Shown in pieces: positions 618 to 44,569 of a stretch of DNA of 64,000 nt. Within the stretch, counting starts at the first letter, position 1. Every line of letters begins with the position of its first letter. Source of the stretch: Sphaerolaimus hirsutus (lineage: Eukaryota; Nematoda; Chromadorea; Monhysterida; Sphaerolaimidae); NCBI GenBank assembly GCA_964036195.1, contig OZ038452.1, forward strand, positions 26,857,785-26,921,784. The letters run 5' to 3'. The notes below the pieces were generated by a model, which was given only the letters and a program-made list of their open reading frames with translations, did not search any database and was not told the origin of the DNA. The translations under genes and the position numbers were made by a program.

Positions 618-3600
618 ATGGAGTTCGCATCGAGCGTGGCGTCTTTCGCCGCCGGCACTGGCGCCTCATTGCTGCTGTGCACGTGGCGCGGCGACGTCCT
701 GTCGCCGGTGCTGTGCGGCTGCGGCGCCGTCGCTGCGGGCGGCAGTGTGCTGCTCGTGCTCAGAGGTGTCTACTCGAAGGGCGACGCGTGGAAGAAGGGG
801 GTTTTGGTTGGTGAAATGGACTGGCTTATTGCTGTATTTACTATTTTGGACCAGTTACTCGCTATAGATAGGGATGGTACGCCACCAAATTTGATGCAAA
901 AGTCATCGCAACAAGCACCGCGGTTACTATATTTGCTCGAATATTTCCCCTGTAAATTATTTTTTTGTCAGACTTCAGGGGGGAACTGTTAAATTATTCA
1001 GGGGGGAATTATTATTTCGTCAAGTTTTCAAAGCATGTTTCTTTCAAATCATCTCATAAAATATGCTTTATAACGAGAATAGCATGCCATTTTTGTTTTT
1101 ATTGAACCCAGGCCAGGGACACATCAAATGTACACTATGCCTAAAAGGGAATTTGTCGATGAGGAAATATTCCATATGCGAAACTGGACTGGTAAAGCTT
1201 GCGAGCAATTTTTTTAACCATTTTACCTGGTGCATAAATACCGGTCCTTTTTTGCTAACCCATAACAGTTTTTGCTAAAGATCCTTTTTTAAATCAAAAC
1301 TTGAAAATCGCTCACCACCTTTAATGGGTGCATAGCAGGTTTCAAAAACACGCATCGCTCGCAGGCCCCATGCGTGACCAGCGCGGTGCTGGGCGCTGTG
1401 GTCGGCTGCTCTGCCACCTTCTGCTTGACCGGCACCGAATCGCCGCCGCCGCTGCTGCAGCTGGGCGACGGGCGCAGCGTGCCGCTGCAGCGCGACCTGT
1501 TCGTGCCGCTGTCCGTGTTCGCGCTGCTGGTGCCACTCCCAGACCCTGTAAATGCCCTGTAACATGTCAAATGTCATGCAAAGTGTCAAAAGTCATGAAA
1601 AATGCCCGTCATTTTGTCATGAAAAAGTGGCAAACGTGGGCACTTTATAGGGTCTGGGAGTGCCCCCTGGCGAGCGTGTTCCATTTTGGCGAGTACGCGG
1701 CTATGGCGCTGATCCGCGAGCGTCAACTCAGCTGGGACTCGTTCGTGATCAACCACTCGCGCGAGTACGGCCTCGCCCTGCTGGCTGCTTTGGTTGAGTA
1801 CTGCCTGCTGGCGTACTTTGCTCCTGGTGCGTTTTGTAGTTCTTCAGACTAGGGTTGGCACTTGATTTTTTTTAAACTGATTTTTTTTTAATTTGATTTT
1901 TTTTTATCAAAGGGGGGAAACTGATTTTAATTTTTTTAAATCAGAAGGCAAAATTTCTGGTAGACTTGCACTAGGTATTTTGCAATTTTTTGGCGCGCAA
2001 GCGCGCATTTTCTCATACACATTACCATTGGTTGGGTTTTTCATGGATTTTGGGCATTTTTAGTGTAAAACAGGGGTATCGAATGGGGGGGGTTACCCCC
2101 CCCCCCAAACCGCCCAGCTATCTATCTATCCCGGAGGCTGCTCAGCTATCTATCTATCCCGGAGGCAAAATTTTGGGCTACTACCCCCTAAACCCCCCCC
2201 CCCCAAATCGCCCAGCTATCTACCTATCTGGAGCGATTTTTGCGAAACTATACCCCAATTTTCGCTTAAAATCGCTATTTTTCATACCTTTTTATAGATT
2301 TTCACTTCCAAAATCATGGTTCTGGTTTCTATTTGCTTTTTTCAGCTATATTTAGTACGATATGCTCTTGTATACCCATTTTGAGCCATTTTACACCTAC
2401 TTTTAGCGATTTTTCTCCCTTTTCTTCCTTCTATGCCCCGAAAAAGCCTATATATCTAACCACCACAACCCCCCCCCCGACCCCCAACCCCCCCAGAAAA
2501 TTCTCAGCTAAATTTTTATCTATCCCTCCAGAGGAGCGATTTGCTATCTATCCAACCACTCGGAGGGTCAAATTTCAAGATACCCCTGGTGTAAAAGCTT
2601 CCATTTATTCATGCTACCAGGTAATAATAAGCCGTGATATGCTAGTGTAGTATACAATGTGTGTAAGATCACTGTCAATGTATTAGCCTTCTCTTACAAC
2701 CTTATTTAAGCACTACTCTATGCTGAACCTCACTTTAAGTTACGAATGTTCAACAAAAGGTGATATATTTATGTAATAAGTGGACATAAAATTTTTTATT
2801 TTTGAAAGAAATCACTGCTTATAATGCTATACCATGATTCCACAGTCATAATATTTATGGCCACAATAGACATAAAACAATACATTGTCTGACACTTAAC
2901 ATACACATATTTTTTCTCTAAACCCCCATTTTGGACGATTTTAAAAAAATCTGATTTTTATTTAAAAAATTGATTTAAAAAAATCAAGGCGTTTAAAAAA
3001 ATTGATTTTTTTCCAACCTACTTCAGACAACACCTGGGATGGCACTTGATTTTTTAAAACGGATTTTTTCAACATTCGATTTTACAATTAAAAAGTCAAA
3101 TTTCTGGTAGGCTTGTGATTGAACGAAAATGGGTACTCTCAGTCTCAGATATACTTTTTACCGTATATCTTCGACTTCCGTCATTTTTTCGTTGGACTTT
3201 TTGACTGGGGTGTTTTTCGAGGTGGGGGGCTGTATCGAGGATATAAGGAGATGTAAATATATATAAATTTATTTTTTTGGTGTGTTTAGAGCATATTGTT
3301 TGTAGCACGGTTTTATACCATCGCTAGTGGGGATGCAGGCAGCAAGCAGCACTACCGGGGCGTGTGCGCGCTGGGCGCGTGCCTGTGCGTGTGCGGCGAC
3401 GTGCTGCGCAAGACCGCCATGCTCACCGCCGGCGGCAACTTCACGCACCAGGTGGAGCGCGTGCGCCGCCCAGACCACCAGGTGCCACTCACAGAGCATG
3501 AAAATGTCCTGCACTATGTCTAATGTCATGCAAGGTGGCTAAGGTCATGCGAAACGCTGTATCAAAAGTCAATGCAAAGTGTCAGTCGTGTAAAATGTCA

Positions 3601-4049
3601 AAAGTTATATAACGTGTCAACAAGTAATGTAAAATGTCAAATGTCCTGCAAAATGTCAAAAGTCATTGAAAATTCTTTCTGAAAAGGGCAAACCTCAGAA
3701 TGACATTAGAAATTCCACAGGACATTTCCCATGGTCCTTGAGTAACCGCCAGCTAGTCACCGGGGGTCCCTACTCACTGTGCAGACACCCGAGCTACGGG
3801 GGTTGGTTCCTGTGGGCGGTGGGCACCCAGCTGGCCCTGTGCAACCCCCTGTGTGCGCTGCTTTACGCGCTCGCCGCGCAGAGGTTTTTCCGCGAGCGAA
3901 TCAGCGACGAGGAGCTGTATTTGATACAGTTTTTCGGCTCCGCCTACGTGCAGTACAAGCGGCGGGTGCGCTTTAGCGGCGTGCCGTTCGCGCCCGGCGT
4001 CGATATGAGTCACTGGGAGCACGGCGTGCATTTGGGCGCTATTTGGTGA
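618..4049 (+). CDS. ICMT: Protein-S-isoprenylcysteine O-methyltransferase, 5 exons
   Basis: Methylates the C-terminal prenylcysteine of CaaX proteins such as Ras, using S-adenosylmethionine, in the ER membrane. Exons: 618-806 (donor 801 is also possible), 1365-1529, 1661-1826, 3339-3481, 3753-4049; phases agree and give about 319 aa (human about 284). Exon 3 carries the family signature FHFGEY followed by SFVINHSREYGLALLA. Exon 4 encodes GDVLRKTAMLTAGGNFTH. Exon 5 encodes the cofactor-binding core LVTGGPYSLCRHPSYGGW and the C-terminal RFFRERISDEE / FFGSAYVQYKRRV. Many hydrophobic segments fit a polytopic membrane enzyme. Introns 2 and 4 are each a single introner-like element; intron 3 holds a hAT element. 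The N-terminal exon is poorly conserved, so the start is the least certain part. Confidence 0.93.
1530..1660 (+). mobile_element. Introner-like element forming ICMT intron 2
   Basis: The 131-base intron is one inverted-repeat element. Its 5' end GTGCCACTCCCAGACCC is the splice donor and its 3' end GGGTCTGGGAG is the acceptor. The interior carries the family motif (TGTCAAATGTCATGCAAAG). The frame joins ...FALL to CPLASVFHF exactly. Confidence 0.85.
1850..3020. mobile_element. hAT-type non-autonomous element in ICMT intron 3
   Basis: Ends TAGGGTTGGCA and CCAACCTA are flanked by an exact 8-base duplication CTTCAGAC (1842-1849 and 3021-3028), the mark of hAT insertion. The arms are T/A-rich (GATTTTTTT). 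There is no transposase. It carries a nested element at 2071-2588. Confidence 0.85.
2071..2588. mobile_element. hAT-type element, CAGGGGTC family, nested
   Basis: Ends CAGGGGTATC and GATACCCCTG with an exact 8-base duplication GTGTAAAA on both sides. The interior has C/G runs, GCTATCTATCTATCCCGGAGG blocks and AGCGATTT motifs shared with the copies at 17178, 21597 and 41057. Confidence 0.85.
3030..3120. repeat. Fragment of the TAGGGTTGGCA hAT family
   Basis: Begins like the element at 1850 (GGATGGCACTTGATTTTTT) and shares AAATTTCTGGTAG, but I find no matching right end. Confidence 0.5.
3482..3752 (+). mobile_element. Introner-like element forming ICMT intron 4
   Basis: Donor CACCAG|GTGCCACTCACAGAG matches the family 5' terminus. 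The last bases before the acceptor (GGTCCTTGAGTAACCGCCAG) are a diverged inverted copy of it. The interior repeats the TGTCAAATGTCCTGCAAAATG type of motif several times, so it is longer than other copies. The coding frame is continuous across it. Confidence 0.75.
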
Positions 4050-4074
4050 TACTGCCCTCGTGATGCTTCTCGAA

Positions 4075-4961: not shown

Positions 4962-6456
4962 ATGGCCCAGCTGGAAGCGGCGCTGCGGGCGGCCGTGCAG
5001 TCGGTCGAGGGCGTGTACCAGGTGCTCGTCACCGACAGGGACGGCATTCCCATGGCCCAGGTGCGGGCGCTTGAGTTGGGCGTGTGCGTGAGACACTTCG
5101 AGACTGGTAATGCATCTGCATTGCGAATGTTGGCTCGAACTTTTTTCAGGGCATACGTTAACGTCAAGGACGTACGCAGGGGGGGGGGTAACGGGGGTTA
5201 ACGTAAATAATTTTTTCTAACACCCCCCCCCCCAGTTCAGAAAACAGGAAATTTTTTAAATTTTACTTACGAGTAAACGTGAATAAAATACTTTTCCACA
5301 GAAAACTTATAGCGACTATTTTAGAAAAATTTTGCTACAATTTTCACTCAAAATAACTAATCGTCATATTTTTTGCCTATTTTCACCTTCAAATTAGTCT
5401 ATTTTAAGCTTTTTGGTTATATTTATATGATCTTATATAAAATTTTTTGGCTATTTTTTTACTATTTTTAGAATTTTTTCACCATTTTCACCCTTCCATG
5501 CCCCGAAAAACTCGCTTATCAGAAATAAGATAAGATACTAACTGATTTAAAAATATTTTTTACAAAACGAAATAGTTAAATTAAAGACCCAAAAGGTAAA
5601 CGTAATAGGGGTGCCAACTCTTAAGAACACGCTCACTAAGATCTGGTGTCATGTGATCTGAGTAACATAGTGGTTAGTGCACTGGAGGGTGGTGGGTTCG
5701 ATTCCCACCTCAGATCATACATTTTTTCAATACTTTTTCTGTACTCGTGTACTTTCAAAAAGTATACGTAAAACCGAGTACAGGAATTTTTTCGGGGGAA
5801 ACGTACACGTATTTACTCTGCATTCGAGTACATATACGTATTTCACATTTTTCAGTTGGCGACGGCCGGGTGCGCCGAGGGCGGAGCGATGGCCGCGCGG
5901 CCGGCCCTCTTGTCAGCGTACAGTGCCGCCCTGGACCAGACCAAGCGACTCGCAAAGGAGGCTCAGAGGTGCGCATTTTGTTGATTGGGAACCGCTTGAT
6001 CGAAGCCGTTTATATTTGAATATGATTTCATTTTATGTTAAAATGCCAAATTTTTCATTTTTTTGTGCCGAGGGACTGGTGCCAGTCCCGCGCCTTTTAA
6101 GTGTAGACTTTGTCAAATGACTTTGACTTTGACAGTGTCAATGTCAAAGTTCAGCAATGAAATCGGTTTTCTTCTAATTGACATTTGACACATTACAGGG
6201 TGCAGGAGTGCCGCCAGAGGAGCGATTTGACATTTAGGATCACAATGCCTGATACCCCCTGTATTCTGCGCGCAGATCGATGGTGTGCGAGTACGGCAAC
6301 GTGCAGCTGGTGATTCTGAACTGCGCGCCGCTGTGCGTCACCGTGCTGGCGGCCAGCTCGGCCAACACGGGCGCCATCCTGGCGCTCAGGGACACCCTGC
6401 AGCCGCAATTGGACGCCGCCGCGGCCGCGTGCGCCAGTGCCTTGCCCAGGGATTGA
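4962..6456 (+). CDS. LAMTOR3: Ragulator subunit LAMTOR3 (MP1), 3 exons
   Basis: A roadblock-fold scaffold that pairs with LAMTOR2 on late endosomes and lysosomes in the Ragulator complex, which anchors Rag GTPases for mTORC1 and also scaffolds MEK/ERK. Exons 4962-5060, 5856-5968 and 6276-6456 give 130 aa (human 124) with matching phases (0, 2). Exon 1 encodes the family start (SVEGVYQVLVTDRDGIPMAQ), exon 2 SAYSAALDQTKRL, exon 3 QLVILNCAP...SSANTGAIL, aligned to human LAMTOR3 throughout. The start ATG has a good context (GCGGCATGG) and matches the human N-terminus in position. Intron 1 carries a repeat with a tRNA-like segment; intron 2 contains an introner-like element. Confidence 0.93.
5150..5850. 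repeat. GTAAACG / GAGTAC repeat in LAMTOR3 intron 1
   Basis: Contains a long C/G run, ACGAGTAAACGTGAATAAAA near its left and GTACTCGTGTACTTTCAAA ... GAGTACATATACGTATTT near its right end. The same organisation recurs at 34680-35160, and diverged ends surround 61165-61870. Limits are approximate. Confidence 0.5.
5656..5717 (+). repeat. tRNA-like sequence lacking an anticodon arm
   Basis: Acceptor-stem halves ATCTGAG and CTCAGAT pair over 7 bases. A D-arm / A-box-like TAACATAGTGGTTAGTGC and a perfect T arm GTGGG-TTCGATT-CCCAC (B box) are present, but only about 11 bases separate them, so no anticodon stem-loop fits. Best read as a tRNA-derived pseudogene or SINE piece rather than a working tRNA. 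Confidence 0.6.
6076..6217 (+). mobile_element. Introner-like element inside LAMTOR3 intron 2
   Basis: Starts CTGGTGCCAGTCCCGCGCC and ends GGGTGCAGGAGTGCCGCCAG, with TGTCAAA...TTTGACA motifs inside. It lies within the intron (5969-6275) rather than at its splice sites. Confidence 0.7.
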
Positions 6457-7222: not shown

Positions 7223-7260
7223 AATTTCGACGGTGTACTAATCTATGCGGGGGCCGCAAT

Positions 7261-10600: not shown

Positions 10601-13600
10601 GGACGTGAATAAGTGCGAGTGCAGAGTATCAAGTCTGCCGAGTGTAGGTAGATCGCATGGTGATTTGGCGGGGGGCGGGGTGTTCAGGGGATAGTAGCTC
10701 AAAATTTTGGGGTGCCCCCACCACTGTCCGGTACCCCCCCCCCATTGGGGACCTTGTGGCCCGCTCACCCTTTGTGCTGGAGGGCGGCGTGGGCGTGGGC
10801 ACGGGCGCGGGGGCGGGCGTGGGCAGGGGTGCTGTCGGCGGCGGCGTGGCCTGTCTGGTCTGCGCGCCCGCCTCGCTGGTGGGCGCACTGTCCGTCTGCG
10901 CGGCCGCGTGCACCGTGTCTGGCGGGTCGGGCCAGTCGCCGTCGAACTGCACCTGGGGGCAGTCCCAGATAGGGTTGGGACGATATGACTTTTTGATATC
11001 GATATTCGATATTCGATATTTTTTTCTGCAACTCGATATTCGATATCGATACGATATGGACCCTCGATATCGATATTCGATATTCGATATTAAAAAATGC
11101 TCGATATTCGATATCGATATTTCGATATTTTCGATATTTTCGATATTTTGCTTTTGGTATAGCTGGGCATATCTCATTTGGCATATTGCATTTCCATTTG
11201 ATCACAAACCCAACTGATCATCTCTACTGAAAAGTAGATGATACAAATTTAAATGGCACACCACGATCAAAATGAGAAAATGATTTAAAAATGTGACAGA
11301 TGTGGTAAGGAAAAGGTGCCAGCCCCATTTATAGGTGCCATGACATGGTGCCATTGATATTTCCATGGTGTAAGTGGCTATTAAACATACATATACTCTT
11401 ATGTGAACATCTGAGAGAGAATTTGCACAAGATTTGATGCTTAAGTGCTTAAGCAAAAATACCAGTCATGTGAGAACAAAGTGCGCACTTGCGCGCAAAA
11501 TTTGTCAAAATTGCTTATGAAATCGCCTTCTAACAGTGCCATTCCTGGCTTATTTGAAGTCAGGCCCAGGGAGTATAGAATATCGAAAATATCGAAAAAA
11601 TGGTCGATATTCGATATCGATATTCGATATTTTTTCAAAATTTTCGATATCGATATTCGATATTCGATATGAAAAAATACTCGATATCCGATATTCGATA
11701 TTCGATACGATATATCGTCCCAACCCTAGTCCCAGACCCTGTAAAATGCCCTGTAAAGTGTCAAATGTCCTGTAAAGTGTCAAAAGTCATGGAAAATACC
11801 CTGCAAAATGGCAACCGATTTGCCATTTTGCAGGGCATTTTCCATGACTTTTGACACTTTGCATGACATTTGACACTTCACACGGCATTTTACAGGGTCT
11901 GGGACTGGCACCTGGGCGTCGCGCATGCCCGCCGCCTCGGCTACGGCCGTCTCTATCTGGTCGAGCTGCTTGTTGCTGAGCAGCGACTTGAGCCAGGGGT
12001 TCTTGCTCAGCTCGGCCGAGATGTCCGCCTGCGGCGTGGATGACCGTGTAGGGCGGCGTGGGGGGTGTAGGCATAGCGGATTTTGGGGTTAGCATTTGGG
12101 GGGGGGGGGGGTCAGCCGGTCAGCACGCGTTACTAACTCGGGAACCGCTTAGCGAAAAATGTTGAAATTTGGATATGTTATGGTTTCAGGTCGGGGCTCT
12201 TCCAGATTTCGACGTTTTTGTTCTACGACCCCCCAGACCGGAGATAGGGATGGTCATAAAAACACTGTAATTTGCGTTTTTTTGGGTGTCGCCAAGAACA
12301 TGCAAACTTTGAACATCAATAGCTCGGTCATTTGTGAACCGATTTTAGTCATTAAAATGTTAAAATAGTCACAAATGTTCGGAGAGTTCATTTCTGAGGT
12401 CAAATCAGAGATACACATTTGTTTATATATCGATTTAGCCCGATTTCGAAATGCAAAATTTCCGCAAAAGTTTGCTTTTTGAACATGCCATCCTATTCTC
12501 CTGATCGAGAGAAACCCAATGAAACAAAAATGAGATCGATATCTCTCTCCGATCAAAAGTTATAGCACTTCAAATCTTCGCGTCCCATCCATGTAAATAA
12601 CCGCATGAAGGTCAATGCGTTCAAATTCAAAACTCCATATCTCGACCATTTCTCAGCCGATTTTTACCAATGAACACTTAAAATGATCAGAATAACCTAA
12701 AGAGTCCAGTTGTATGTTCAAATTGTCAATATGCCTTTTCATAATGATAATTTCATACAAGAGTTTGCATTATTTTCTTGTGTGGGAAATTTAAGTTAGG
12801 ATACNNNNNNNNNNNNNNNNNNNNNNNNNNNNNNNNNNNNNNNNNNNNNNNNNNNNNNNNNNNNNNNNNNNNNNNNNNNNNNNNNNNNNNNNNNNNNNNN
12901 NNNNNNNNNNNNNNNNNNNNNNNNNNNNNNNNNNNNNNNNNNNNNNNNNNNNNNNNNNNNNNNNNNNNNNNNNNNNNNNNNNNNNNNNNNNNNNNNNNNN
13001 NNNNAATTAATGCGAACTCTTGAATTAAATTGTCATAATGAAAATGCATACAAATAAACTGTGGATAAAAATGATATCTACATGTCATTCTGATCATTTG
13101 AAGTGTGCATCAGTGAAAATCGGCTGAGAAATGGCCGAGATATGGAGTTTTGAAGTTGCATGCATGTGCTTATTTATGTGGATGGGAGGGAAAAGTTTGA
13201 AGCGCCATAACTTTTGATCGGAAAGAGATATCGATCTCATTTTTGTTTCATTGAGTTTCTCTCGATCAGGAGAATAGGATAGCATGTTCAAAAAGCAAAC
13301 TTTTGCGGAAATTTTGCATTTCGAAATCGGGCTAAATCGATATATAAACAAATGTGTCTCTCCGATTTGACCTCAGAAATGAATTTTCCGAACATTTGTG
13401 ATCATTTTAACATTTTAATGACTAAAATCGGTTCACAAATGACCGAGCTATTGATGTTCAAAGTTTGCATGTTCTTGGCGACACCCCAAAAAACGCAAAT
13501 GACAGTGTTTTTATAGATCCCCCTATCTCCGGTCTGGGGGGTCGTAGAAAAAATCGTCAAAATTGTGCGTAGCCCCAACCTAGAACTCTATCATATCCAA

Positions 13601-22600: not shown

Positions 22601-25600
22601 TGCCAGGGGTCTAGTAGGGGACGGATTGGGGGCAGGTGATTCCGAAAACTCGAAAATGGGGATTCGAAAACCAGGCCCTAAACCTGATCTCAATCCCCAG
22701 GACTAATACCCGAACCGAAATCTGACACTAAATTTTATGGACCCGCAACCTAATGCCCGGATATGAAAATTTAGAAATTTGGAACCCAAGTTTTTTATGC
22801 ATTTGGCACAATTCCAGCAGTTTTTGACATTTAGATCGAAGACCGCCTTCTAATTATTTCCAGGAACACCCGATACCCGATAACCACCGCGGTTCGTAAC
22901 CCTTCCATTTGTAATCCAAAGTATTCATGTCGGTTGTAAAGCCAAAGTAGCTTTATTAACGACATACTTTGGCTTACGAACCGATGGGTTAAATATCGGG
23001 TAGGTTAAATTAGGGATGGCAAGCGCTTTTTTTCAAGCGCTTTTTTTAAAAAAACGCCGCTTTAAAAAAAAGCGCTGACAAAAAATTTTGTACTTAGACA
23101 CTAGTTATTTTGCTATTTTTTTGTGCACAAGCGCGAAATTTCACATGCAAATTACCACTGGTGGTTGTTTTCATTGGTTTTGTGGCATTTTTAGTGTCAT
23201 TGCTTCTATTCCTGCATGTTATCCTGTAATAATAAGTTGTGATATGTTAGTGTAGTATAGAATATTCAGTCAATGTGCTCCTACATACTTCTACAGTGGG
23301 AAACATTAGTCTCAATATATTAGCCTTCTCTTATAGCCTTATTTATAAGCACTATTTCATGCCTAACTTCACTTGAAGTCACGAAACATTCACAAACAGC
23401 GATATACATAATGAGTCAACATAAAAAGTAATTTTTTTTGGCAGAAATCACCACTTATCATGTTATCCCATGACTACACAGCCATTATATGGCTATATAT
23501 CATCACAAGTACTGCCACTTGTCTGATATACCTGTATATATTGATACAGAACCATATTTGAGAGCTTTTGAGGGAAAGTCTCGACATTTTTTGAAAAAAA
23601 GCGAAAAAACGCGTTTTTTTCTTCAAAAAAGCGCTTTTTTTAAAAAAGCGCCTTTTTCCATCCCTAGGTTAAATATCGCTATACTCTGATAATTTCGTAG
23701 CCCAAATAATATCAAAAAGTGTACCTTCTATTGGAAGAAATACGGTAGCTGTTCTAGTTGAAAGAAGACAAGTTTGTTTGTTTTGTTTGAACAGTTTAGA
23801 ATTGGTTCCATTACAATATCTATCTGTGACACGATCTGCTTAAATTTTATCAAACATGATTAATGAAGCACCCAGAAATAATATTTGCAACAAATGAGTT
23901 GAAAGAGGTCAGTCACATCGAATGAACTTTATGCCGTATTTGATTGATGTGTGATAATTATGCGACAAATACTTTTTACGACAATTTGACATGTCTGCTG
24001 TGCATAAATATAAAGCTGTACATGTATATAGCATGCTTTTCAATTTCATGCTAGTTTTACCGTTTTTGCGTTAAATTTTTTTCATTTCGGCTACTTTTTT
24101 ACACGGCACATATTGAAGTGATCAATTGAGATTGTACGGATATTTTGCATCGGCAACATTTTTAGACTTTTGTCAAAGAACGTGCGCCAGAAAAATGGCC
24201 GACTCTTGTCGTATGCGGGGGGCCAGTCTCGCACCCTGTAAAGTGTCAAGTGTCAAATGTCATGTAAAATTAAAGGAAAAAAGAAAAATTTTACTGAAAG
24301 TTTGACATATGCATCACATTGACAAATCAAAATGACATTTTACATGATATTTGACTCGTTACTTTACACTTTACAGGGTGCGGGACTGCCACCTGACCGT
24401 TCCTCCCGCTTGTAGCATTTTATTCATTTTAACACTTTCGTCTACCATGTTTCCATGGTTCATACGGCTATAATCGAGAGTGGCTAATTATTACATCATA
24501 CTAAAATGTATTTACTAGCTATATGCTAATTTATTAGAGGGGGCAATGCAAGTATTTATTGTTTCATTGTGGACAGATGAATATATTTCAAATTTTCAAA
24601 GCGGACGTAAATAATTTTCAGTGCCGTCATCGACCGCAGCTAATAATAGTCCATAGGGCATACGGTTCGACGGAAACAGATAGTCCATATTATTTTTGAA
24701 GTGAAATTCCATGTACGAAACCGATATTTACAATGACCCTGCCCCTACACACACCGGTTGAAACATAATTTCATAATCATGAAGTCATAATTCAGACTAA
24801 AAATTCGAAAATGCAATATTTTGAGGGAATTTTTTTTTGAAAAGTCAAAAAAGATTCGAAAATTTGAAAAGTAATAAAAAAGATTAGAAAATTCAAAAAC
24901 TATTTTTGAAAAAAATTCGAAAAGTCGTTTTCGAAAAAACACTTAAAAATTTGAATACTCTTCTCATGACGGTTTGCCATCGTTACTGAGCTGCAACAAC
25001 TGCAAATTATTTAATGTCTCTTATAACTCACGCAAGCACAAATTATCCTGGCGCTTTTGTTCTTGGCGCCACTAAAAAAAACGCGCTAGCGCAGTAATCA
25101 CATGCTCGCTTGACGCATTTGATTTCATTGCAGCCATATAAACATAGCAAATACATCCGTGATAAATGGTACTTGCATATTTCACATCAATCTATAGAAT
25201 GCAAGCCGAAGTGAACTGACAGAGTTGGGGGTGGGAGGGGGCATTGTCCCTGTGGCAACAAGCTTAGAACACACGCAGCTGGCGCCATTACCAGACCCTA
25301 TAAAAGTAAAAGTTCATACAGAGTGTCAAATGTCGTGTAAAATGCCCTGTGAAATGTCAAATGACAGGCAAAGTATCAAAAGATATGTACAATTCCCTGT
25401 GAAATGTGAAAAGTCAAAAGTCATGTAAAATGTCCTGCTTAATGTCAAACACGGTTTACCATTTTCTCGCAGTCTGAAAAGTCATAAAAAAGGCTCTAAG
25501 TTTGCCCCCTGCACGCACACATCCACCCAACACCCTGCCTTGCGGTGCGCAGGGAGGGCGGGCAGCTGGCGGCGCAGACGAGCGGCGGGCTGGCGGGGCC

Positions 25601-28600
25601 GGCGGGCACGCTGCACTCGTCCATCTCGTTCATCCTGCTCAACTTCGCCGAGATGAACAAGCTCTGGGTCAGGATGCAGTACGCAGGTATTTGCGACAAT
25701 TGGTTTTATGGCGTCACGGGTGGTCTTTGCAAAGTTGGCCAGCGATACTTGGCTCCGCGGACCGCACGCTATTCGGTTTTCTGAAGGAAACCCCATTATG
25801 ACGTCATCGTTTATTAAATAAAGATCAGTCTAACAAAAAAGCAAAGAAACGTTTCAGGGAAAAACATTCGTCGCTTGTACGTGACTCCGCCTTTTTCTTT
25901 TTAAATGTTTTTCCTTTTTTTTGTGAAAGTGCATTCATAAATATCCTGCTGGCGCGTTATCGACGTAAACATAAGTAATTTTGGGCGCATACTTTGCGGT
26001 CCGTCGAGTATAAGCTAAAATGGTGCCAGTGCTTTTGGCGCTTGGCACAAATGGTGCCTCAGAAAGAGTGTAAATATGAAGCGCCAAGTGTACCAAAGTA
26101 TGCTAATCCTAAAAGTAAACAAGTGACTTTGGTGTTGTTTGATTCGTGGATCATTTTTGAACTGTCTTGGTTTGGAATACTCACATAATTTTTTGGCATG
26201 GGTATGTTGGGTATAGGTATATAGTGTTCGCTTGCATATAGGTAATGATCAGGAAATTAGTCCATCACAGTCACAGTACATCGACACCTTAAAAAGCCAC
26301 ATTCTAATAGAACACATCAATACTATTTAATGCGAAAATGTAGATTGGCAATGTTTTTCAGCAAAAATTGCGCTATTTTCTTCACAGTGAAACTTACATT
26401 TTACAAACTTACATTTTGAAGCGTACATTTTACATTTTACAAACTGCCACTGGGTCGTTTGCAGGTAGCTCTAAGCTGGCCGAGCGGCGGGAGAAGGAGC
26501 GCCAAGAGCTGCGCATTTTGGTGGGCACCAACTTGGTGCGCCTGAGCCAACTGGACAACGTCGACCTGCCCGTCTACAGACAGGTCGGCATCCACGATCA
26601 GTTCTAGGGGCACCTTCTAGGATGCCGGCCCGAAGGCGTCGTATTTGTGCTGGTGCCCCGCTAGTTGGCACTTGTGAAATAGGAAAGCGGCGAAAATCGT
26701 GTAGAGATGAGTCGGGAAGTGTCAGCGTAATGTCACTTCACGACGCTTTACCACCTCTATCCACACCACATTTTTTGCTGTGATAGGGGAATCCAGAATT
26801 CTAGGGTGATTAAAAAAATACACGAAAAATATGCGATAAATTTTTATTTAACGTTTCATATTTCTAGCAAAAATGTTCTGTATTTGTGAGAAAATTCATA
26901 TTTATTTTTTTATCGCTCTCAGAGGTGATTTGGAAGAAACATTGGACTCAATTTCACTGAAGCGATTTTTTAAAATCAGATTCAGACAGCCTGAAAAATC
27001 GATCTTTACAAACCGTAAATCAAGCGCCTTACATTTGCACCTGCATAAATGTGCAAAACGATTGCCTTGAATATCGTGCATGGGTTTTGCGTGTTCGCTT
27101 TGAGTCCGTGCCTATATATTGGCTCGCTCGCAGACCGTGCTGCCGGCAATGCTGGAGCAGGTGGTGTCGTGCAGGGACGCCCTGGCGCAGGAGTACCTCA
27201 TGGAGTGCATCATACAGGCTAGCCGCTCTTTTGTTGCCCATCGGTTTGGCACCGTGCCAATCACAGGTGCCCTGGCTTGCTCAGGTGTTTCCGGACGACT
27301 TCCACTTGAGCACGCTGGACGAGCTGCTGGCAGCCTGCGCCGAGCTGCACCAGGCTGTGCAGGTGCGCCCTGGCGCCAGTCCCGGACCCTGTAAAATGTC
27401 CAATATCATGCAAAGTGTCTAATGTCATGGAAAAGCAATTTTGACATTTGATGGGGCATTTTACATGACTTTACAGGGCTCTGGACTGGGACTGCCCCCT
27501 GGTTCCAATTCTGACAGTGGACAAGTGGCAAAAGAAGTGCTTGATGATCAGTAAGGCTAGGTGCTATTTACTCAAGCGACAAGTGTACATAACACGTATT
27601 GTCATTGTAAATTTACTTATCATTGACACAATAGCCTGTTCCCTTCTAAATAACTCGACTTATGATTAAGCACTGTTTTTCCACTTCACTAGCGGGGCTG
27701 GCGCCAAAGGCTTTACGTCGCTCGGCGCTCAGTGCCCATCTAACTGTGCAGGGCTCTCCTATTTTTTTACCCTCCGGGGGGTTGGATAGATAGCTGAGCG
27801 GCCTCTGGGATAGATAGATAGCTGGAAATTTTTGGGGGGGTTTGGGGGAACAAGAACTGGTAATTTTGGAGGTGAAAATGTATAAAAGGATATGAAAAAA
27901 GACCCCTACAACGGTGTCTCGCCGCGGCTCAGATGCGCACGGTGCTGATCGCGCTGATCGACCGCATCGCCGTGTACTGCGCCGAGAGCGAGCGGCGGCC
28001 CGAAGGCGCCCAACAGCCCAACGAGCACCTGTTCGAGGTGTTCAGCGAGCACACGAACAAGATCGTCGCCAGCAGACACGACATGCCCCTGGAGGACGTG
28101 GTCGCGCTGCAGACGGCGCTCGTGCGACTGGCGCTCCGCTGCTACCCCGACCGCAAGGACTACGTGGACACGGTGCTCGCCATCGTAGAGTCCGCCTTCG
28201 CCAAGCACCAGGTGCCAGTCCCCCGGACCCCGTAAAATGTCTAATGTCATGCAAAGTGTCAAAAGTCATGGAAAATGCCCGGTAAAACGTACGTTTGCCA
28301 TTTTACCGGGCATTTTACATGACTTTTGACACTTTGCATGACATTTTACAGGGCATTTTACATGACTTTTGACACTTTGCACCCCCGATGCGCCTCCAGG
28401 CGCAGCTGGCGCACAACGGGCGCGTCGGCCGCGAGCTGCTCAAACTGATCCGCCTGCCCGTGGAGCACTACGGCAGCGTGGTCGACCTGCTCGACTTGCC
28501 GCACTTCAAGGCCGCCTACGCGCCGCTCGACTACCGCGGGCGGACGCTCGCCTGCCTGGCCGTGTGCCAGAGGGCGCTCGAGACGGCCGCGTTCATCGAC

Positions 28601-31456
28601 CAGGTGTCGCAGGTGCGTGACTCCGCCCCCTTTCCCACGCGTCTGCGCGTGCGCCCGTGAGCTCAGCCTCTCTCGCAGGCCGAGGGCATCGTGGAGTTGC
28701 TCGAGCCGCTGGTGAGCGACCAGAGCGACCAGCCGGCCGACGTGTTCGACAGCGACGAGTTCGGCGAGGAGCAGCACCACGTGGCCCGACTGATAGCCCT
28801 GCTGCACAACGAGACCAGCGCCGACACGCAGTACTTGGTGCGTCTGTCAGGGGCAGTCCCACTCAGACCCTGTAAAATGTAAAATATCATGCATAAAGTG
28901 TCAAGTCATGTAAAATACCCTGCAAAAGCGCAACTCGGTTGCCTTTTTTATGACTTTAGACACTTTGCATGACGTTATACATTTTACAGGTCATTTTACA
29001 TGGCTTTGGTATTGGCACCTGGTCATCCTCTTTGCAACCAATTCACACTGACCCTTTCGCCGCGCTGCAGATTCTGGCTGCGGTGCGCAAGAAGTTAGGC
29101 ACGGGCGGCTCCAATCGGATGCGCTTCACGCTGCCGCCGCTCGTGTTCGCCGCTTACAAGCTGGCGCGCCGCTTCAACGCGCACGAAACCAAGGTCGCCT
29201 GACGTCGTTTTGTGGTTTCCGTTTGAACGTTAAAAAACTCATGTTCGCAAGTGTTTGCGGAATTGTGGGGTTGGGATCATCTTTTTCGGGTTCGGGTATC
29301 GGTTCCAGTAAATTTTGCGGAGATCCGTTTGGGTTCGGGTCGTAGAGCCAGGCTCGGTTATCCGGTTTTTGGTTTCAAAAAATGTGCGGGTACGGGCTTC
29401 TTGTCGGGTCGGATTGCCAACCGTAACGCAACCGTGAAACAGGGGTCGCGCCCGTCGTAGGACGAGGTGTGGTCGAAGAAGCTGTCCAAGGTGTTCAAGT
29501 TCGCGCACGACACGGTGGCGGCGCTGTGCAAGGAGGCGGACATGGCCGCCCTGCCGCTGCGCCTCTACTTGGCCGGCGCCCTAGCCCTGGACCAGTGCGA
29601 CCAACAGTTCGCCCCCAGGGAGTCCATCGCGTATGACTTCGTGTCGCAGGTTGCGCTTGCACCCATTTGAACGCTCGCGTCGGACACAGCATGCAAGGAA
29701 TTGGGGACGGCATTTTTAGGGCGGGTCCAGACTAGGGTGTCAACAAAAACTTTTTGGCGGAAAACGGAAACAGAAACGGAAAAAAATCTGCACTTGCCGG
29801 AAAACGGAAATGGAAACGGAAAAATACTTGCACTTGCCGGAAAACAGAAAACGGAACAATTTGCTGAAATTATGCCGGAAACAGAAAAAAAATTGCTAAA
29901 ATTTTGCCAGAAATGGAGAAAAAAATTTGCAGAAATTTATCCGGAAATAGAAAAATTTGCTGAAATCATGCAAGAAATAGAAATAATTCACATAATTGAG
30001 AACCTGCATGCATTTTTACGAGTTTGGCTGAAACAGAAAAGGAAAATTGAGCTGGTCAATAAAAAAACGTTGGCACAACAGACAATTGAGCCGGAAAATG
30101 GAAAAAAGACGGTAAAACTGAAAATTTAGCCGGAAAAAGGAAAATGGGCCGGAAAAACGGAAACGGAAACGAAAAACAATTTAACAGCCGGAAAACGGCA
30201 ACGGAAACGGAAAAAAATTTGCCTGCAGAAACGGAAAACGGAAAGTTGACACCCTAGTCCAGACTTATGTTTCGTCCCATTGAGCCCACGCGCCGTAGTT
30301 GACTTCTACATCAAATGTCAACTGGTGCCTATCCCGATTGAAAGCTTGATGTTGAGCCGACGAACGACGTTCAGACGCAAGCTTTTAGTTGGAACTTAAC
30401 CAGTTGACATTTGGTGTCGATGTCAACTAGCGTAGCGTATAGGGCCATTGACGCCACAACACTAGTTGACATTAAAATGTCAACTGATATATGTCAACCA
30501 AAAACAGCACAATGGGACGACAGGAGAGTCTGGCAGACTGCCCCCTAGAATGCCAACCCCAATTCACTCTATGAGGGGGGGTTGCGATCCCTACAGATGG
30601 TGGGCGCGACTTGCAGGCGTTCTCGATCTACGAGGACGAGATCAGCGACAGCCGGTCGCAGCTGGCCGCCGTGTGCGTGATCACGGCCGCGCTGCAGCAG
30701 ATGCGCTGCTTCGGCGCCGACAGCCACGAGCCGCTGCGGACCCAGTGCGCCCTGGCCGCCGCGCGACTCTTCAAGAAGCCCGACCAGTGTAGGGGGCTCT
30801 TCGGCGTGGTACGTCCCGTATATTGGACAAATGGCAAATGTTATGCAAATTGTTGAAAGTCGTGTAAAATGCCATGGTGTTTTGCCGTTTTATCGGGGAT
30901 TTTACATGACTTTTGACACTTTGCATGACATGTGACTTTTTACAGGGTCTGGGACTGCCCCCTGGGAAACGTTATGGCAGCGGGTGATTCGCTCGCGCAG
31001 CGTGTAAAGATTAGCCGCGCAGGCGCACTTGTTCTGGTCGGCCACGGTGGCCGGTCAGGAGGGCCAGCTGCGCGACGGCAAGCGCGTCGCCGACTGCATG
31101 AAGAAGGCGCTCAAAGTGGCCGGCCAGTGCAGCATGGACCCGGCGCTGCAGCTGCAGCTGTTCATCGAGGCGCTCGACCACTACCTGTACTTCTACGAGG
31201 CGGCGTGCGGCGACGTGACGCCGGTCACGCTCAACCAGCTGCTGGGCAAGATCAGAGAGACGCTGCCGCAGCTGGAGGACACGGCCGAGCACGAGCAGCT
31301 GCGCGCCCACTTCCAGGTGCGTCGCCGCCGCCGCGCGTCATCTTTCTGTCGTGTAGTTCGTGCCGCGCCGCGCAGAACACGCTCGTCTACGTGCGGCAGC
31401 GAGCAGAGGCCCCGCCCGCGCCGGACGCCGTGCCTTTCGACGGCATCATACTGTGA
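7683..31456 (+). CDS. VPS35: Retromer subunit VPS35, 16 exons, complete
   Basis: Central alpha-solenoid of the retromer (VPS26-VPS35-VPS29), which recycles receptors from endosomes to the Golgi or plasma membrane. Coding exons: 7683-7784, 7846-7942, 8269-8392, 8810-8983, 25553-25686, 26465-26583, 27134-27217, 27285-27362, 27933-28211, 28400-28612, 28679-28837, 29071-29193, 29461-29649, 30617-30808, 31023-31316, 31376-31456. Phases agree at every junction and give 813 aa (human 796). Seen: FQMKRCL at the start, [11 protein letters not shown] (residues about 100-110, the VPS26-binding PRLYL motif), [96 protein letters not shown], ending FDGIIL. Intron 4 is 16.6 kb and contains the K2P gene on the other strand. 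Intron 7 (27218-27284) starts with GC instead of GT. Intron 9 is an introner-like element. Confidence 0.96.
9041..9240. mobile_element. hAT-like MITE with ATCGATAT arms
   Basis: Ends GGGGTTGGGAGGATGTG and CATATCGTCCCAACCCTA, with repeated ATATCGAATATCGATATCG inside; same family as 10970-11728. Target duplication not clear. It lies in VPS35 intron 4. Confidence 0.6.
9552..16649 (-). CDS. Two-pore-domain potassium channel (KCNK/K2P), 9 coding exons
   Basis: Background potassium channel of the plasma membrane; two such subunits form one pore. Coding exons in transcript order: 16649-16386, 15978-15884, 15497-15335, 15023-14855, 14639-14466, 13881-13709, 12028-11912, 10952-10769, 9655-9552. Phases agree throughout; 480 aa. 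The first exon begins at an acceptor (16659) with ATG at 16649, so an upstream exon exists and could add residues. TM1 is [20 protein letters not shown] (about 22-42), then a cap region. Selectivity filter 1 is TIGYGN (121-126), preceded by [12 protein letters not shown]. Filter 2 is TIGFGD (285-290). TM4 is [14 protein letters not shown], followed by a long polar tail ending YLEYKFK. A Ser/Lys-rich loop (about 175-230) with [12 protein letters not shown] repeats separates TM2 and TM3. The exon 2 donor is GC (AG|GCACGT). Two introns (14640-14854 and 10953-11911) are introner-like elements. The gene lies wholly within VPS35 intron 4. Confidence 0.9.
9686..10369. mobile_element. hAT-type element, AACGTTTTTT arms
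   Basis: Ends TAGGGTTGGCCGATG and CCAACCCTA with an exact 8-base duplication TTTGTGAC on both sides. Arms are TTTTTTTAAAAAAAAACG runs. It lies in the last K2P intron. Confidence 0.85.
10953..11911 (-). mobile_element. Introner-like element forming K2P intron 7, split by a hAT element
   Basis: On the minus strand the donor is GCCCAG|GTGCCAGTCCCAGACCC and the acceptor GGGACTGCCCCCAG|GTGCAG, i.e. both element termini are the splice sites. The inner TGTCAAATGTCATGCAAAG motif and its inverse are present at 11733-11900. A hAT element (10970-11728) sits inside, inflating the intron to 959 bases without touching either splice site. Confidence 0.85.
10970..11728. mobile_element. hAT-type element nested in the introner
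   Basis: Ends TAGGGTTGGGACGATATG and CGTCCCAACCCTA with exact 8-base duplication GTCCCAGA (10962-10969, 11729-11736), which lies within the introner terminus. Both arms are ATCGATAT repeats around about 400 bases of unique sequence. Confidence 0.88.
12073..13695. mobile_element. Large palindromic element with the assembly gap at its centre
   Basis: About 700-base arms: 12078-12800 reads as the diverged reverse complement of 13005-13690 (for example ACTCGGGAACCGCTTAGCG against CGCCAAGCGGTTCCCGAGT; GACCCCCCAGACCGGAG against CTCCGGTCTGGGGGGTC). Outer ends are GGATTTTGGGGTTAGC and its inverse. It lies in K2P intron 6. Arms contain no coding region I recognise. Confidence 0.8.
12805..13004. other. 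Assembly gap of 200 N
   Basis: A run of exactly 200 N, probably a placeholder length. Open frames that cross it are artefacts. Confidence 0.99.
13933..14338. mobile_element. Two adjacent elements of a second introner-like family
   Basis: Copies 13933-14169 and 14167-14338 abut. Each starts TGGTGCCA and ends CCCCTGG like the main family, but the interior differs (GTGAAATGGCAAAGGCGAAG with its inverse, AAAATGAGAAG). They lie inside K2P intron 5 and do not form its splice sites. Confidence 0.65.
14640..14854 (-). mobile_element. Introner-like element forming K2P intron 4
   Basis: Minus-strand donor CCGG|GTGCCAGTCCCAGACACTG and acceptor GGGTTCGGGACTGCCCCAG|AG. The intron is 215 bases and entirely the element. 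The phase-1 junction restores ...[17 protein letters not shown] in frame. Confidence 0.87.
15083..15296. mobile_element. Tc1/mariner-type MITE, CCGTA...TCCTCGAATAA family
   Basis: Ends CCGTAAGTCCTCGAATAAGA and CATTCGAGGATATACGG between TA dinucleotides. It lies in K2P intron 3. Related copies are at 37426, 43434, 45033 and 60278. Confidence 0.65.
15540..15825. repeat. Diverged GGGGAATAATT / TTCAAGGGG repeat
   Basis: Begins CCTTGGGGAATAATTTTTTCG and ends GGGGAGGGATTATTCAAG, resembling the MITE at 15083 and fragments at 950-1030, 18309-18430 and 38112-38440. Limits uncertain. Confidence 0.45.
16966..17130. mobile_element. Diverged copy of the 7078-7222 palindromic MITE
   Basis: Shares AAATCTGTTTTGAACA, GAGTTTACCAAAATGA, CTGTCAACTGC and CTGCGGTGTAC with that element. 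The first arm contains a short tandem duplication. Confidence 0.6.
17178..17679. mobile_element. hAT-type element, CAGGGGTC family
   Basis: Ends CAGGGGTCTCCTAG and TTGGAGACCCCTG with exact 8-base duplication CGTGCCGG on both sides. The interior is like that of 2071-2588. Confidence 0.88.
17680..21596. other. VPS35 intron 4, mostly unassigned
   Basis: No exon I can place. It holds a C-rich TAACTCCCCC fragment (18309-18430) and a decayed CAGGGGTC-type piece (about 19620-19985). A GC-rich stretch at 19150-19285 opens on the minus strand after an acceptor-like TTTCTTAG and might be an upstream K2P exon, but I find no convincing donor. Confidence 0.4.
21597..22578. mobile_element. hAT-type element, CAGGGGTC family, outer copy
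   Basis: Ends CAGGGGTCTCCTAG and ATGGAGACCCCTG with exact 8-base duplication CCCTATGA. It is interrupted by an inverted copy of its own family. Confidence 0.87.
21700..22195. mobile_element. CAGGGGTC family copy inserted, inverted, into its relative
   Basis: CAGGGGTCTTCTAG ... CTACCCCTG in the opposite orientation to the host copy (its GCTATCTAT blocks read on the minus strand). Flanks TCCGGATG and CCCGGAGG look like a diverged duplication. Confidence 0.75.
22579..23010. other. Intronic, CCCGA-rich repeat remnant
   Basis: No gene. Contains AATCCCCAG, ACCCGATACCCGATAACC and similar degenerate repeats like those at 61270-61790 and 29255-29440. Confidence 0.35.
23011..23666. mobile_element. 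hAT-type element, AAGCGCTTTTTT arms
   Basis: Ends TAGGGATGGCAAGCGC and TTCCATCCCTA with exact 8-base duplication GGTTAAAT. Arms are runs of AAAAAAGCGCTTTTTT. The middle (AGTGTCATTGCTTCTATTC ...) matches the middle of the elements at 1850 and 9686, so these are one extended family. Confidence 0.87.
23667..25278. other. VPS35 intron 4, AT-rich, one introner copy
   Basis: No exon seen. It contains the introner-like element at 24216-24395; the rest is AT-rich without recognisable structure. Confidence 0.4.
24216..24395. mobile_element. Introner-like element, deep intronic copy
   Basis: GGCCAGTCTCGCACCCTGTA ... TTTACAGGGTGCGGGACTG with TGTCAAATGTCATGTAAAA inside. It lies far from any splice site. 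Confidence 0.75.
25279..25445. mobile_element. One-ended introner-like element near the VPS35 exon 5 acceptor
   Basis: Starts CTGGCGCCATTACCAGACCC and carries several TGTCAAATG / TGTAAAATGCCCTG motifs, but no clear inverted right end before the exon at 25553. Confidence 0.55.
25754..26012. mobile_element. CGGACCG / CGGTCCG inverted-repeat MITE
   Basis: Left TCCGCGGACCGCACGCTATT, right GCATACTTTGCGGTCCGTCG, with TGACGTCATC inside. It lies in VPS35 intron 5. Other copies: 38011-38548 and, inverted, 51070-51330. Confidence 0.6.
26700..26785. repeat. 3' fragment of the CACAGCAAAAAAT element
   Basis: GTCGGGAAGTGTCAGCG ... ATTTTTTGCTGTGATA matches the right part of the element at 42034-42389. It lies in VPS35 intron 6. 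Confidence 0.55.
27369..27502 (+). mobile_element. Introner-like element 6 bases inside the VPS35 intron 8 donor
   Basis: Exon 8 ends GTGCAG|GTGCGC and the element starts almost at once (GGCGCCAGTCCCGGACCCTG), ending GGGACTGCCCCCTGG. The intron continues to 27932. Confidence 0.75.
27751..27908. repeat. Shortened CAGGGGTC-family hAT copy
   Basis: CAGGGCTCTCCTATTTTTTTA ... AAAGACCCCTA with CCTCCGGGGGGTTGGATAGATAG inside; much of the element is missing. Confidence 0.6.
28212..28399 (+). mobile_element. Introner-like element forming VPS35 intron 9
   Basis: Donor CACCAG|GTGCCAGTCCCCCGGACC is the element 5' terminus. The interior has TGTCATGCAAAGTGTCAAAAG and its inverse, with the right arm partly duplicated, up to a diverged end GCGCCTCCAG|. 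The 188-base intron contains nothing else. Confidence 0.8.
28848..29022 (-). mobile_element. Introner-like element in reverse orientation in VPS35 intron 11
   Basis: CAGGGGCAGTCCCACTCAGA ... GGTATTGGCACCTGG, the reverse of the splicing orientation. The exon uses its own donor just upstream (TTG|GTGCGT) and a distant acceptor at 29070. Confidence 0.7.
29733..30256. mobile_element. hAT-type element, CGGAAAACGG family
   Basis: Ends TAGGGTGTCAAC and GTTGACACCCTA with exact 8-base duplication GTCCAGAC. The body is repeats of GGAAAACGGAAACGGAAA. It lies in VPS35 intron 13. Relatives: 35696, 46035, 51745. Confidence 0.88.
30293..30452. repeat. GTTGACAT-type MITE copy
   Basis: GAGCCCACGCGCCGTAGTTG ... 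GATGTCAACTAGCGTAG and AGGGCC form weak inverted ends like those at 4075 and 7261. Confidence 0.45.
30820..30965 (+). mobile_element. Introner-like element in VPS35 intron 14
   Basis: The right end is clear (TTTTACAGGGTCTGGGACTG then CCCCCTGG); the left end near the donor is diverged (AAATGTTATGCAAATTG). It lies between exon ends 30808 and 31023. Confidence 0.65.
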
Positions 31457-31696: not shown

Positions 31697-33296
31697 TCAC
31701 AGGCCCATGGGGCGTTGCGTCCACATCCAGTGCCACCTGGATTTTCGCTTGCGCACGTGCGGCGCTTTGTGCGCCCTGGTCCGGTCGTCCTCGTGCTGCG
31801 TGATGAAGTGGGTCGCCTCGAGCTGGCCGTCGCCGCCTGGCGGCAGTCCCGCACCTTGGAAAGTGTGAAGGAATGTGTCTAATGCCGTGTGAATGAATGG
31901 CGATTAAAATGGAGATGGAAAAGATGTTGTTTCTGAACTTTTGACATTTTACACGACATTTGACTGTTTACTTTACACTTTACAGGGTGCGGGACTGCCA
32001 CCTGCCCGCGCGCCCGCCCGCTCGCTAGCCACGTTCCCTTGACCCGTCCTGCAGACAGAGTTGTTTTCATAAATATCATATTTGTCGACACGATTCCCAT
32101 AATGGTCCCACACACGCTAGTTGACGCCAAAATTAGCGTCAACTCAGAGTCAACTGGTCAAAAATTCAATTGACTCTGAGCCATTTACAATATGTATCCA
32201 AAAAAAACCTTCTTTCATTCTACATCAATCGACTTCTCAATATTTCTTAATCAACACAGGTAAAAAGTTAAAAATAGTTATACTTAAAACAGTTGACTCT
32301 GAGTTGACTCAATCGACTTCTAAAAAGTAGCGTCAACCACCGTGTGGGGCGCCAATCGCCGAAAATAAACTGCTCCCCACCCAAGTTTGGCAGTTACTGT
32401 GTTGTTGGATGATGTCTACCACAGCTCCAGATATCGGGGGAGTAAAAGTCTGAAAATTTTGTGCGTAGTGCTCAACGGCCCTGTGCCGGTGCTGATCTTT
32501 ACCCGGTGTGCATCCTGCGCTTTCCGGTGCTCATGTTTACTCATTGCTAGGGGTATCCTAGATTTTTACCCTCCGGGGGTTGGGTAGATAGCAAATTGCT
32601 CCTCCGGAGGGATGCATAGCTGAAAAACGCGATCTTTAAGACGATTTAGTGGGTTCAGGGGATAGTAGACAAAAAATTTCCTTCCGGGATAGATAGATAG
32701 TTGGGCGGTTTGGGGTCTGGGTTACCTTGGAGACCCCAGCGCGGTGCTCATCGTGCCCCCCACGATAAGCATGGCAATTGCCGTAAATGAGCAGTAGATG
32801 AGCTCCGGGTAAAGATGAGCTCGGGTCCTTAGTCGTATTTACCCAACACCCCCCCCCCACACACTACTATACGCTGCCTGAGGATGGCCAGCGGAGTGGT
32901 TCACCCGAACTAGAACCCGATCCAAAGCGGAAAAACCGCGAATTTTTGGACTGATACCCAAGCAAGCTGAACCTTTTTGACCCGGTACCCGACAACTGGA
33001 CCCAAAAATTGGATGATTGCCAAGCCTACTGCGAGATTACCTCGTTTGGGCGCGGGCGACGGCCGCCCGCGGCAGTAGCAGTGCGGCCGGGGGCCACTCC
33101 CAGACCCTCGAAAGTGTCAAATGTCACGCAGAGTGTCTAAAGTCATGTAAAATCCCCTGCAATATTGCAATGTTTGATATTTTCCAGGGCATTTCGCATG
33201 ACTTTTGACATTGCACGACCTGTGACATTTTACAGGGTCTGACAATGACACCAACAAAATGGCCAACATGCAGCGTAACTGCTTGCCCTCCATCAT
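31697..33296 (-). CDS. Putative secreted peptide precursor, 4 exons, unrecognised
   Basis: Exons in transcript order: 33296-33252, 33096-33041, 32048-32002, 31836-31697; phases 0, 2, 1 agree and give 95 aa. The start MMEGKQLRCMLAILL plus the first residues of exon 2 (WPPAALLLPRAAVARA) form a signal peptide split by intron 1. An in-frame TAG lies just upstream of the ATG. The mature part has no cysteine, is charged (FITQHEDDRTRAHKAP) and has a tetrabasic RKRK before the tail SRWHWMWTQRPMGL, an arrangement usual in neuropeptide or hormone precursors. Introns 1 and 3 are introner-like elements. I do not recognise the family. The joined signal peptide and consistent phases support a real gene; function is inference. 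Confidence 0.6.
31837..32001 (-). mobile_element. Introner-like element forming intron 3 of the peptide gene
   Basis: Minus-strand donor GGGCAG|GTGGCAGTCCCGCACCC and acceptor GGTGCGGGACTGCCGCCAG|. The interior carries TGTCGTGTAAAATGTCAAAAG and weaker inverse motifs. The whole 165-base intron is the element. Confidence 0.8.
32104..32351. mobile_element. GTTGACGC-type MITE in peptide gene intron 2
   Basis: GGTCCCACACACGCTAGTTG ... TAGCGTCAACCACCGTGTGG with TTGACTCTGAG repeated inside. Same family as 7261-7491. Confidence 0.6.
32549..32740. repeat. Shortened CAGGGGTC-family hAT copy
   Basis: AGGGGTATCCTAGATTTTTA with CCTCCGGGGGTTGGGTAGATAG, ending CCTTGGAGACCCCA; internally deleted. Confidence 0.6.
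33097..33251 (-). mobile_element. Introner-like element forming intron 1 of the peptide gene
   Basis: Minus-strand donor TTG|GTGTCATTGTCAGACCC and acceptor GAGGGTCTGGGAG|TGG. The acceptor mode is the same as in ICMT intron 2. The 155-base intron is the element and splits the signal peptide in phase 0. Confidence 0.8.

Positions 33297-39177: not shown

Positions 39178-44569
<5,392 letters not shown>

Follow-up and report, generated by a model that had tools for sequence, protein, structure and literature searches.

The 64 kb of Sphaerolaimus hirsutus DNA analysed here (positions 26,857,785 to 26,921,784 of OZ038452.1; the window, part of contig C3) raises the question of whether short transposable elements can become the introns of the genes into which they insert. 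The origin of introns is an old open question for which few animal cases are available. The elements concerned are miniature inverted-repeat transposable elements (MITEs) of about 190 bp that form a hairpin, with the 5′ end GTGCCAGTCCC and the 3′ end GGGACTGCCCC, and the family very probably represents introners built from non-autonomous, hairpin-forming inverted-repeat transposons. The finding is real and extends far beyond the window, as judged from a search of the host genome (348,482,957 bp in 762 contigs, denoted C1, C3, C705 and so on; L numbers denote fetched element loci). The source element, its target rule, the anatomy of its splice sites and gene copies both carrying and lacking the insert can all be seen in this one genome.

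The family is abundant both locally and genome-wide. With up to 3 mismatches allowed, the 14-mer CAGGTGCCAGTCCC has 25 matches in the window versus 2.4 expected, and 27 element ends there score at least 19/26, where 20 block-shuffled windows average 1.75. Across the genome the 14-mer has 873 and 833 matches on the two strands versus 3 for its reversed control, and the 22-mer core CAGTCCCAGACCCTGTAAAATG has 1,091 + 1,067 = 2,158 exact matches versus 0 for the reversed control; as the core can occur at both ends of one copy, and thus at most twice, this corresponds to at least 1,079 copies. Alignment of 66 copies, each 120-200 bp long, yields a 189-position majority sequence, from which these copies diverge by a median of 9.6%. 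The hairpin of the K2P copy at 14640-14854 has a predicted stability of -117.7 kcal/mol (z -17, with 0 of 200 shuffles equally stable), and its predicted fold draws the donor and acceptor together. Rfam at gathering thresholds gives no match in the window.

A sequence-only reading of the window had described seven introns in four genes as single copies of one such element, with the element termini serving as splice sites. All seven boundaries are located as it had placed them, and these introns, like the copies sampled across the genome, are similar end to end up to both splice sites, which are inferred from reading frames and homologues. Five of the introns stand in recognisable genes (two each in ICMT and K2P and one in VPS35), and the two in a small gene, the "peptide gene", have plausible open frames. 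The description as a single copy fails for the longer K2P intron, within which a hAT-like insert lies that entered the copy later and that we take to be hAT from its repeat length and type of end. With both element introns removed, the ICMT protein aligns to the solved ICMT structure 5v7p, from Tribolium, with an E-value of 7e-56 and no gap at either join; the intron 4 join reads HQ|LVT, and at the intron 2 join just 6 upstream residues are aligned. The VPS35 join, KHQ|AQL, shows a one-residue gap in the alignment to solved 7bln (E 8e-56). The K2P joins keep the reading frame, and an ion-channel match (PF07885) lies in the exon following the shorter K2P intron and does not span the join.

The ends and target of the element suggest how such introns could arise. 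Among 98 paired copies from the window and the fetched loci, a sample picked partly through a CAG-containing motif and including some haplotype duplicates, 86 can be oriented by their ends. One end is GTGCCAGTCCC, exact in 42 of the 86, and the opposite end is GGGGCAGTCCC, exact in 36; the termini are unequal, one beginning GTGCC and the other finishing GCCCC. Counted from the GT end, the flanks are CAG on both sides in 24 copies and CTG on both sides in 19, giving matching repeats at a fixed offset in 43/86, and some of the remaining oriented copies gain matching repeats once the end is shifted by one base. The target duplication is 3 bp, CAG (CTG on the other strand). Over 45 distinct sites whose repeats match, C occupies position -1 in 71%, against 24% for 6,780 background CAGs, and G occupies position +3 in 47%, against 21% of background; these two excesses define C|CAG|G as the favoured target.

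This target is similar to the proto-splice site, the exon sequence that commonly borders introns, so the target choice of the transposase would itself make insertions spliceable. An element inserted as [CAG]GTGCC...GCCCC[CAG] on the sense strand would supply its GT as the donor, and the second CAG would be the acceptor, so that splicing would remove the element and one target copy and leave the coding sequence as it was before insertion. The duplicated C|CAG|G target would also offer a mechanical explanation for the tendency of introns to sit between CAG and G. The sequence-only reading had placed CAG before every donor and drawn the acceptor from the 3′ terminus of the element. The former applies to 4/7 introns, the others having CTG, CGG or TTG, and the latter only to two variant copies (at 1530 and 33251), whereas the CAG copies would use the second copy of the host target. 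The two variants, in ICMT intron 2 and the small gene, have a CACTCCC end with a predicted internal acceptor GGGAG|TG and would bring their own acceptor GGGAG|. ICMT intron 2 has the target repeat CTG at 1527-1529 and 1667-1669, and since its acceptor lies inside the element end, splicing would add 9 nt in frame. In the CTG orientation the donor would be present and the acceptor absent, and some CTG copies seem to have acquired an acceptor where the acceptor-side CTG changed to CAG.

Genome-wide counts of the orientations bear on this proposal. The patterns require both ends to be exact, and the reversed controls give 0 in all four classes. The splice-ready class A, [CAG]GTGCC...GGGACTGCCCC[CAG], has 171 members compared with 87 for class B, [CTG]...[CTG] (p = 2e-7), an excess that could come partly from subfamily or length effects because the pattern fixes 11 bases per end and one length class. 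Copies with unlike repeats are the cleaner test because neutral change should yield both kinds about equally: [CTG]..[CAG], with AG on the acceptor side, occurs 35 times and its mirror [CAG]..[CTG] 11 times (p = 5e-4), an excess to which mutation context could contribute. The acceptor side retains or acquires AG, and the two comparisons together argue that CTG is a poorer acceptor at best.

Gene copies without the insert were sought by searching the genome with 22 joined flanks, where an empty site is contiguous, of equal length and covers at least 60 nt on each side. Empty paralogues are found for 4/22 joins, at which insertion into an exon would have created the intron, and partial matches cross the join for two more (L086, L034); for the other 16/22 joins the genome-wide search recovered nothing beyond the locus itself or a filled copy. 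Three of the four (L072, L040, L027) belong to class A and lie in open frames, with Pfam support for L027 only, and their sister sequences lack the element plus one CAG. For L040, two remoter relatives on C15 span the join with 9 nt extra. The fourth, L074, is a CTG copy. A transposase-like gene is filled with a CTG-orientation copy at L074 317-506, C2:29427403-29427735 and C4:21609057-21609389, and C6:4046572 is without the copy. A local search for empty sites within the fetched loci gave 5 matches, 3 of which are family or own-locus self-matches at L069 and L013. In L031, a copy near 3044 (minus strand) lies within a tandem repeat of which other units keep the uninterrupted site.

Insertion into coding sequence is also indicated in an unbiased sample of exact-core copies from C1 0.97-7.83 Mb, where 57 were found (6 unpaired, 51 paired) and 47 remain once haplotype duplicates are removed, 5 of them not orientable. 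Using a codon model trained on the window exons, with one PKA exon entered in the wrong frame, 6/47 copies are flanked on both sides by in-frame coding sequence when read with the GT end first (p = 3e-4 relative to 1.9% at 4,236 background CAG sites); with the GG end first the count is 4/47 (p = 0.01). Reading of the joined frames suggests that the codon score misjudges AT-richer exons; L080, which was scored GG-first, has a more protein-like frame GT-first and no Pfam match. Among joins selected by hand from open frames, Pfam matches above cut-off span 7/20 read GT-first versus 0/10 read the other way. A weaker VWD match occurs at the GT-first join of L026, and in the reverse reading L082 has a zinc-finger frame whose above-cut-off match is confined to one side of the join, with weaker matches spanning it.

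Taken together, an introner-like MITE, as first proposed for the window, is the best reading of the 3-bp CAG/CTG duplications, genome-wide copies, in-frame joins, splice-ready excess and empty paralogous sites. Several points weigh against it. The splicing of the copies is deduced from genomic DNA, and an autonomous element with the family ends was not found, the long open frames of the fetched loci having been left unsearched for transposase except for one piece of L042. The polarity of the codon score (GT-first 6 versus GG-first 4 of 47, p = 0.75) differs insignificantly and is for this reason not used as support. The joins submitted to Pfam were hand-selected, and two of the spanning matches cross the join by only 3 (LRR, L055) and 4 residues (CBS, L067). 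The possible subfamily or length contribution to the class A excess counts on the same side, as do two PKA introns, each with a single element end (41776, 42972), in which the element does not form the intron. Finally, CTG-orientation copies without AG at the end lie within Pfam-confirmed exons (L046, L059, L065, L067), and a pure AG rule alone leaves such copies unexplained.

Class B copies probably interrupt conserved exons in L085 and L054 as well, and in all six loci exact excision keeps the frame. Other acceptors would alter the product. In L046, L059, L065, L085 and L054 an ACAG lies 16 nt before the end, the use of which would leave 19 nt and shift the frame, and an in-frame AG lies 21-36 nt downstream, the use of which would delete 6-11 residues. 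L059 has an additional in-frame AG 42 nt upstream, and its use would leave 45 nt more in the product, and L067 is one base shorter, so that use of its ACAG would add 18 nt in frame. Empty alleles of the former five loci were sought in the assembly and none was found. The exonic CTG copies may be spliced at CTG or at another AG, or may be null alleles, and they offer a natural test of how strict the acceptor AG is. A broader proposal, doubtful on the genomic sequence at hand, is that both orientations make working introns, with CAG copies spliced as GT-AG and CTG copies as GT-TG at the duplicated CTG, later improved to AG by selection, such that a Harbinger-type transposase targeting the proto-splice site would seed introns on either strand. 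TG is an alternative 3′ splice site in human U2 introns according to the available text of that study (PMC2374985), which would be a precedent if CTG copies are spliced at CTG|, where the element end here has no AG.

An ordinary MITE that often enters pre-existing introns, with flush ends due to coincidence or gene-model error, is a very improbable explanation. Several window copies do lie within larger introns, so that a copy within an intron is not proof of intron gain, and the two PKA introns contain mere ends and, not being the element themselves, look like older introns that received insertions; PKA aligns ungapped to solved PKA 7e11 over 316/318 residues. However, each of the five introns in recognisable genes of the window has the first GT of the element as its donor and finishes either at the second copy of the target repeat (four introns) or within the terminus of the element (one intron). 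The joins aligned to homologues are ungapped (ICMT twice) or have the single-residue gap of VPS35, four sites have contiguous intron-less paralogues, and the acceptor-side AG excess is 35:11.

A very improbable explanation is that the exonic copies are unspliced insertions that a single assembly happens to have captured, as pseudogenes or as null alleles still segregating. CTG copies in conserved exons without AG at the 3′ end would fit this, as would haplotype-like duplicates in the assembly. Against it, the VPS35 copy and one of the K2P copies are present on C705 as well as on C3, C705 probably being the other haplotype of the window region (flanks 96-97% identical), and the five CTG-orientation exonic copies yielded no empty allele. 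Moreover, 12/13 of the listed exonic copies differ by 5-11% from the majority sequence, and one by 27%, and the AG bias on the acceptor side has no obvious reason absent splicing. Hairpin-driven excision from RNA without the spliceosome could draw on the very strong hairpin that pairs both ends and is scarcely conceivable given the GT donor, AG acceptor and proto-splice context, which are spliceosomal, and the footprint of selection on the AG.

The enzyme that mobilises these introners is probably a NuwaI/Harbinger-type transposase, as suggested by the target repeat and one of the two ends. The NuwaI group of PHIS (PIF/Harbinger-ISL2EU-Spy) transposons makes 5′-CWG-3′ duplications, has been reported from animals only, has inverted repeats of 12-61 bp that usually start GGG, and is defined by its transposase (PMC4482050); a member would be expected to encode a DDE transposase (PF13359) and a Myb/SANT protein between such ends. 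The family has the CWG target-site duplication and is like NuwaI in this and in one GGG-starting end (GGGG, the other end starting GTGC); unlike NuwaI, which is defined by its transposase, it is known from non-autonomous copies alone. The main text of the NuwaI paper is without the word "intron" (PMC4482050). A profile search finds 163 PF13359 matches in the genome. In the covered part of C1, 0/4 matches lie within 10 kb of the listed exact ends, Myb/SANT not having been searched; a further match, at C1:27123437, is separated by 3.3 kb from a complete B copy, the remaining matches being without a systematic check. A kinase piece occurs among the long open frames of the fetched loci, in L042. 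Most of the listed PF13359 matches (e.g., C7:3244940-3245572 and C4:29627453-29628085) have near-identical scores and lengths and about four in-frame TGA codons each, and another in-frame stop occurs in only 3 of those listed. This suggests either a gene with TGA read much as tryptophan or a dead master copied many times.

Comparable systems differ in several respects. A text search of the literature joining "introner" and "Harbinger" returned fungal work only, and the term "proto-splice site" is absent from the papers listed by a search on it. The non-canonical introns of the larvacean Fritillaria reportedly have a transposon origin. In the available text on this animal, 95% of introns escape GT/AG and introner transposons are discussed as one cause (PMC13326754); it shares with the present case an animal genome and unusual introns, whereas the ordinary introns of VPS35 and PKA here, read by eye, are GT/AG, on which ground a larvacean source of the genome was set aside. 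The survey by Gozashti et al. 2022 reports introners from just two groups of animals, and describes a Chrysochromulina introner that brings the 5′ splice site, obtains its 3′ site through duplication of the target and lacks inverted repeats (PMC9860276). Transposon copies here likewise make up whole introns, with one splice site from the duplication and an mRNA length that would stay unchanged, and differ in the animal genome, to which K2P, PKA, VPS35 and other gene types also point, the 3-bp CWG repeat, the inverted repeats and the proto-splice-like acceptor repeat. The newly gained introns of Daphnia are likewise a recent gain in an animal (PMC4202315).

Table 1. Coordinates of element introns, other family copies, a second family, Pfam-spanned joins and empty paralogues (locations without a contig or locus name are window positions)
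Feature	Location	Strand	Details
ICMT intron 2, CACTCCC variant	intron 1530-1660; copy 1530-1666	+	GTGCC donor; predicted acceptor GGGAG|TG within 3′ end
ICMT intron 4	intron 3482-3752; diverged copy 3482-3749	+	CAG 3479-3481 and 3750-3752; second CAG is predicted acceptor
K2P intron, longer	10953-11911	-	CAG|GTGCC...GCCCCCAG, interrupted by hAT-like insert
hAT-like insert nested in K2P copy	~10970-11728 (approximate ends)	-	inverted repeat TAGGGTTGGGACGATA; 8-bp repeat TCTGGGAC
K2P intron, shorter	14640-14854	-	hairpin almost complete; target repeat CGG on the left, CAG on the right
VPS35 intron	intron 28212-28399; copy 28212-28396	+	target repeat CAG 28209-28211 and 28397-28399
Small-gene ("peptide gene") intron	31837-32001	-	CAG on each side
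Intron of the same small gene	intron 33097-33251; copy 33091-33251	-	GGGAG|TG acceptor type; no recognisable target repeat
Copy in larger intron of tentative LAMTOR3-like gene	6079-6214	+	CTG left, CAG right; gene label from Pfam match under cut-off
Copy within VPS35 intron	27373-27498	+	begins 10 nt past donor
Copy within another VPS35 intron	28850-29018	+	begins 12 nt past donor
Truncated copy within VPS35 intron	30820-30961	+	one recognisable end at 30961; start approximate
Family copy	24220-24392	-	no coding flank seen
Related second family (CAGTTCC core)	13936-14165	+	GT/GG ends, CTG repeat
Second family, further copies	L026 1944-2128; L033 489-722; L034 4307-4517; L042 613-841		
GT-first join spanned by Pfam match	L046		xanthine/uracil permease
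GT-first join spanned by Pfam match	L065		CHGN
GT-first join spanned by Pfam match	L073		amino acid permease
GT-first join spanned by Pfam match	L059		Oscp1, 42 residues on 42 positions
GT-first join spanned by Pfam match	L055		LRR
GT-first join spanned by Pfam match	L067		CBS
GT-first join spanned by Pfam match	L027		PAN
L072 empty paralogue	C1:6157599-6157740		142/142 nt, 92%
L040 empty paralogue	C1:7909193-7909332		140/140 nt, 91%
L027 empty paralogue	C1:5742872-5743007		136/136 nt, 88%
L027 empty paralogue	C496:59473-59607		135/135 nt, 87%
L074 empty paralogue	C6:4046572-4046714		143/143 nt, 76%

Two other assignments of the element ends were considered and dropped. CAGTCCC as an element end with an 8-bp repeat (hAT or P type) was rejected as the inverted match extends beyond it and a 3-bp CWG repeat fits. 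CACTA/EnSpm transposons have a 3-bp target repeat, and were rejected because the repeat here is CWG in most copies and neither end begins with CACT(A/G). Another, related MITE family, CAGTTCC...AAAATGAGAAGTG, shares the GT/GG ends and, for the most part, the CWG target repeat. Haplotype-like duplicates in the assembly include L019/L020, L024/L025, L075/L077, L076/L078 and contig C705, with the members of the first two pairs mutually inverted. Four element ends lie 10-12 nt past ordinary VPS35 and PKA donors (27363-27372, 28838-28849, 42973-42982, 41777-41786), a spacing that may reflect an insertion preference or a donor shift.

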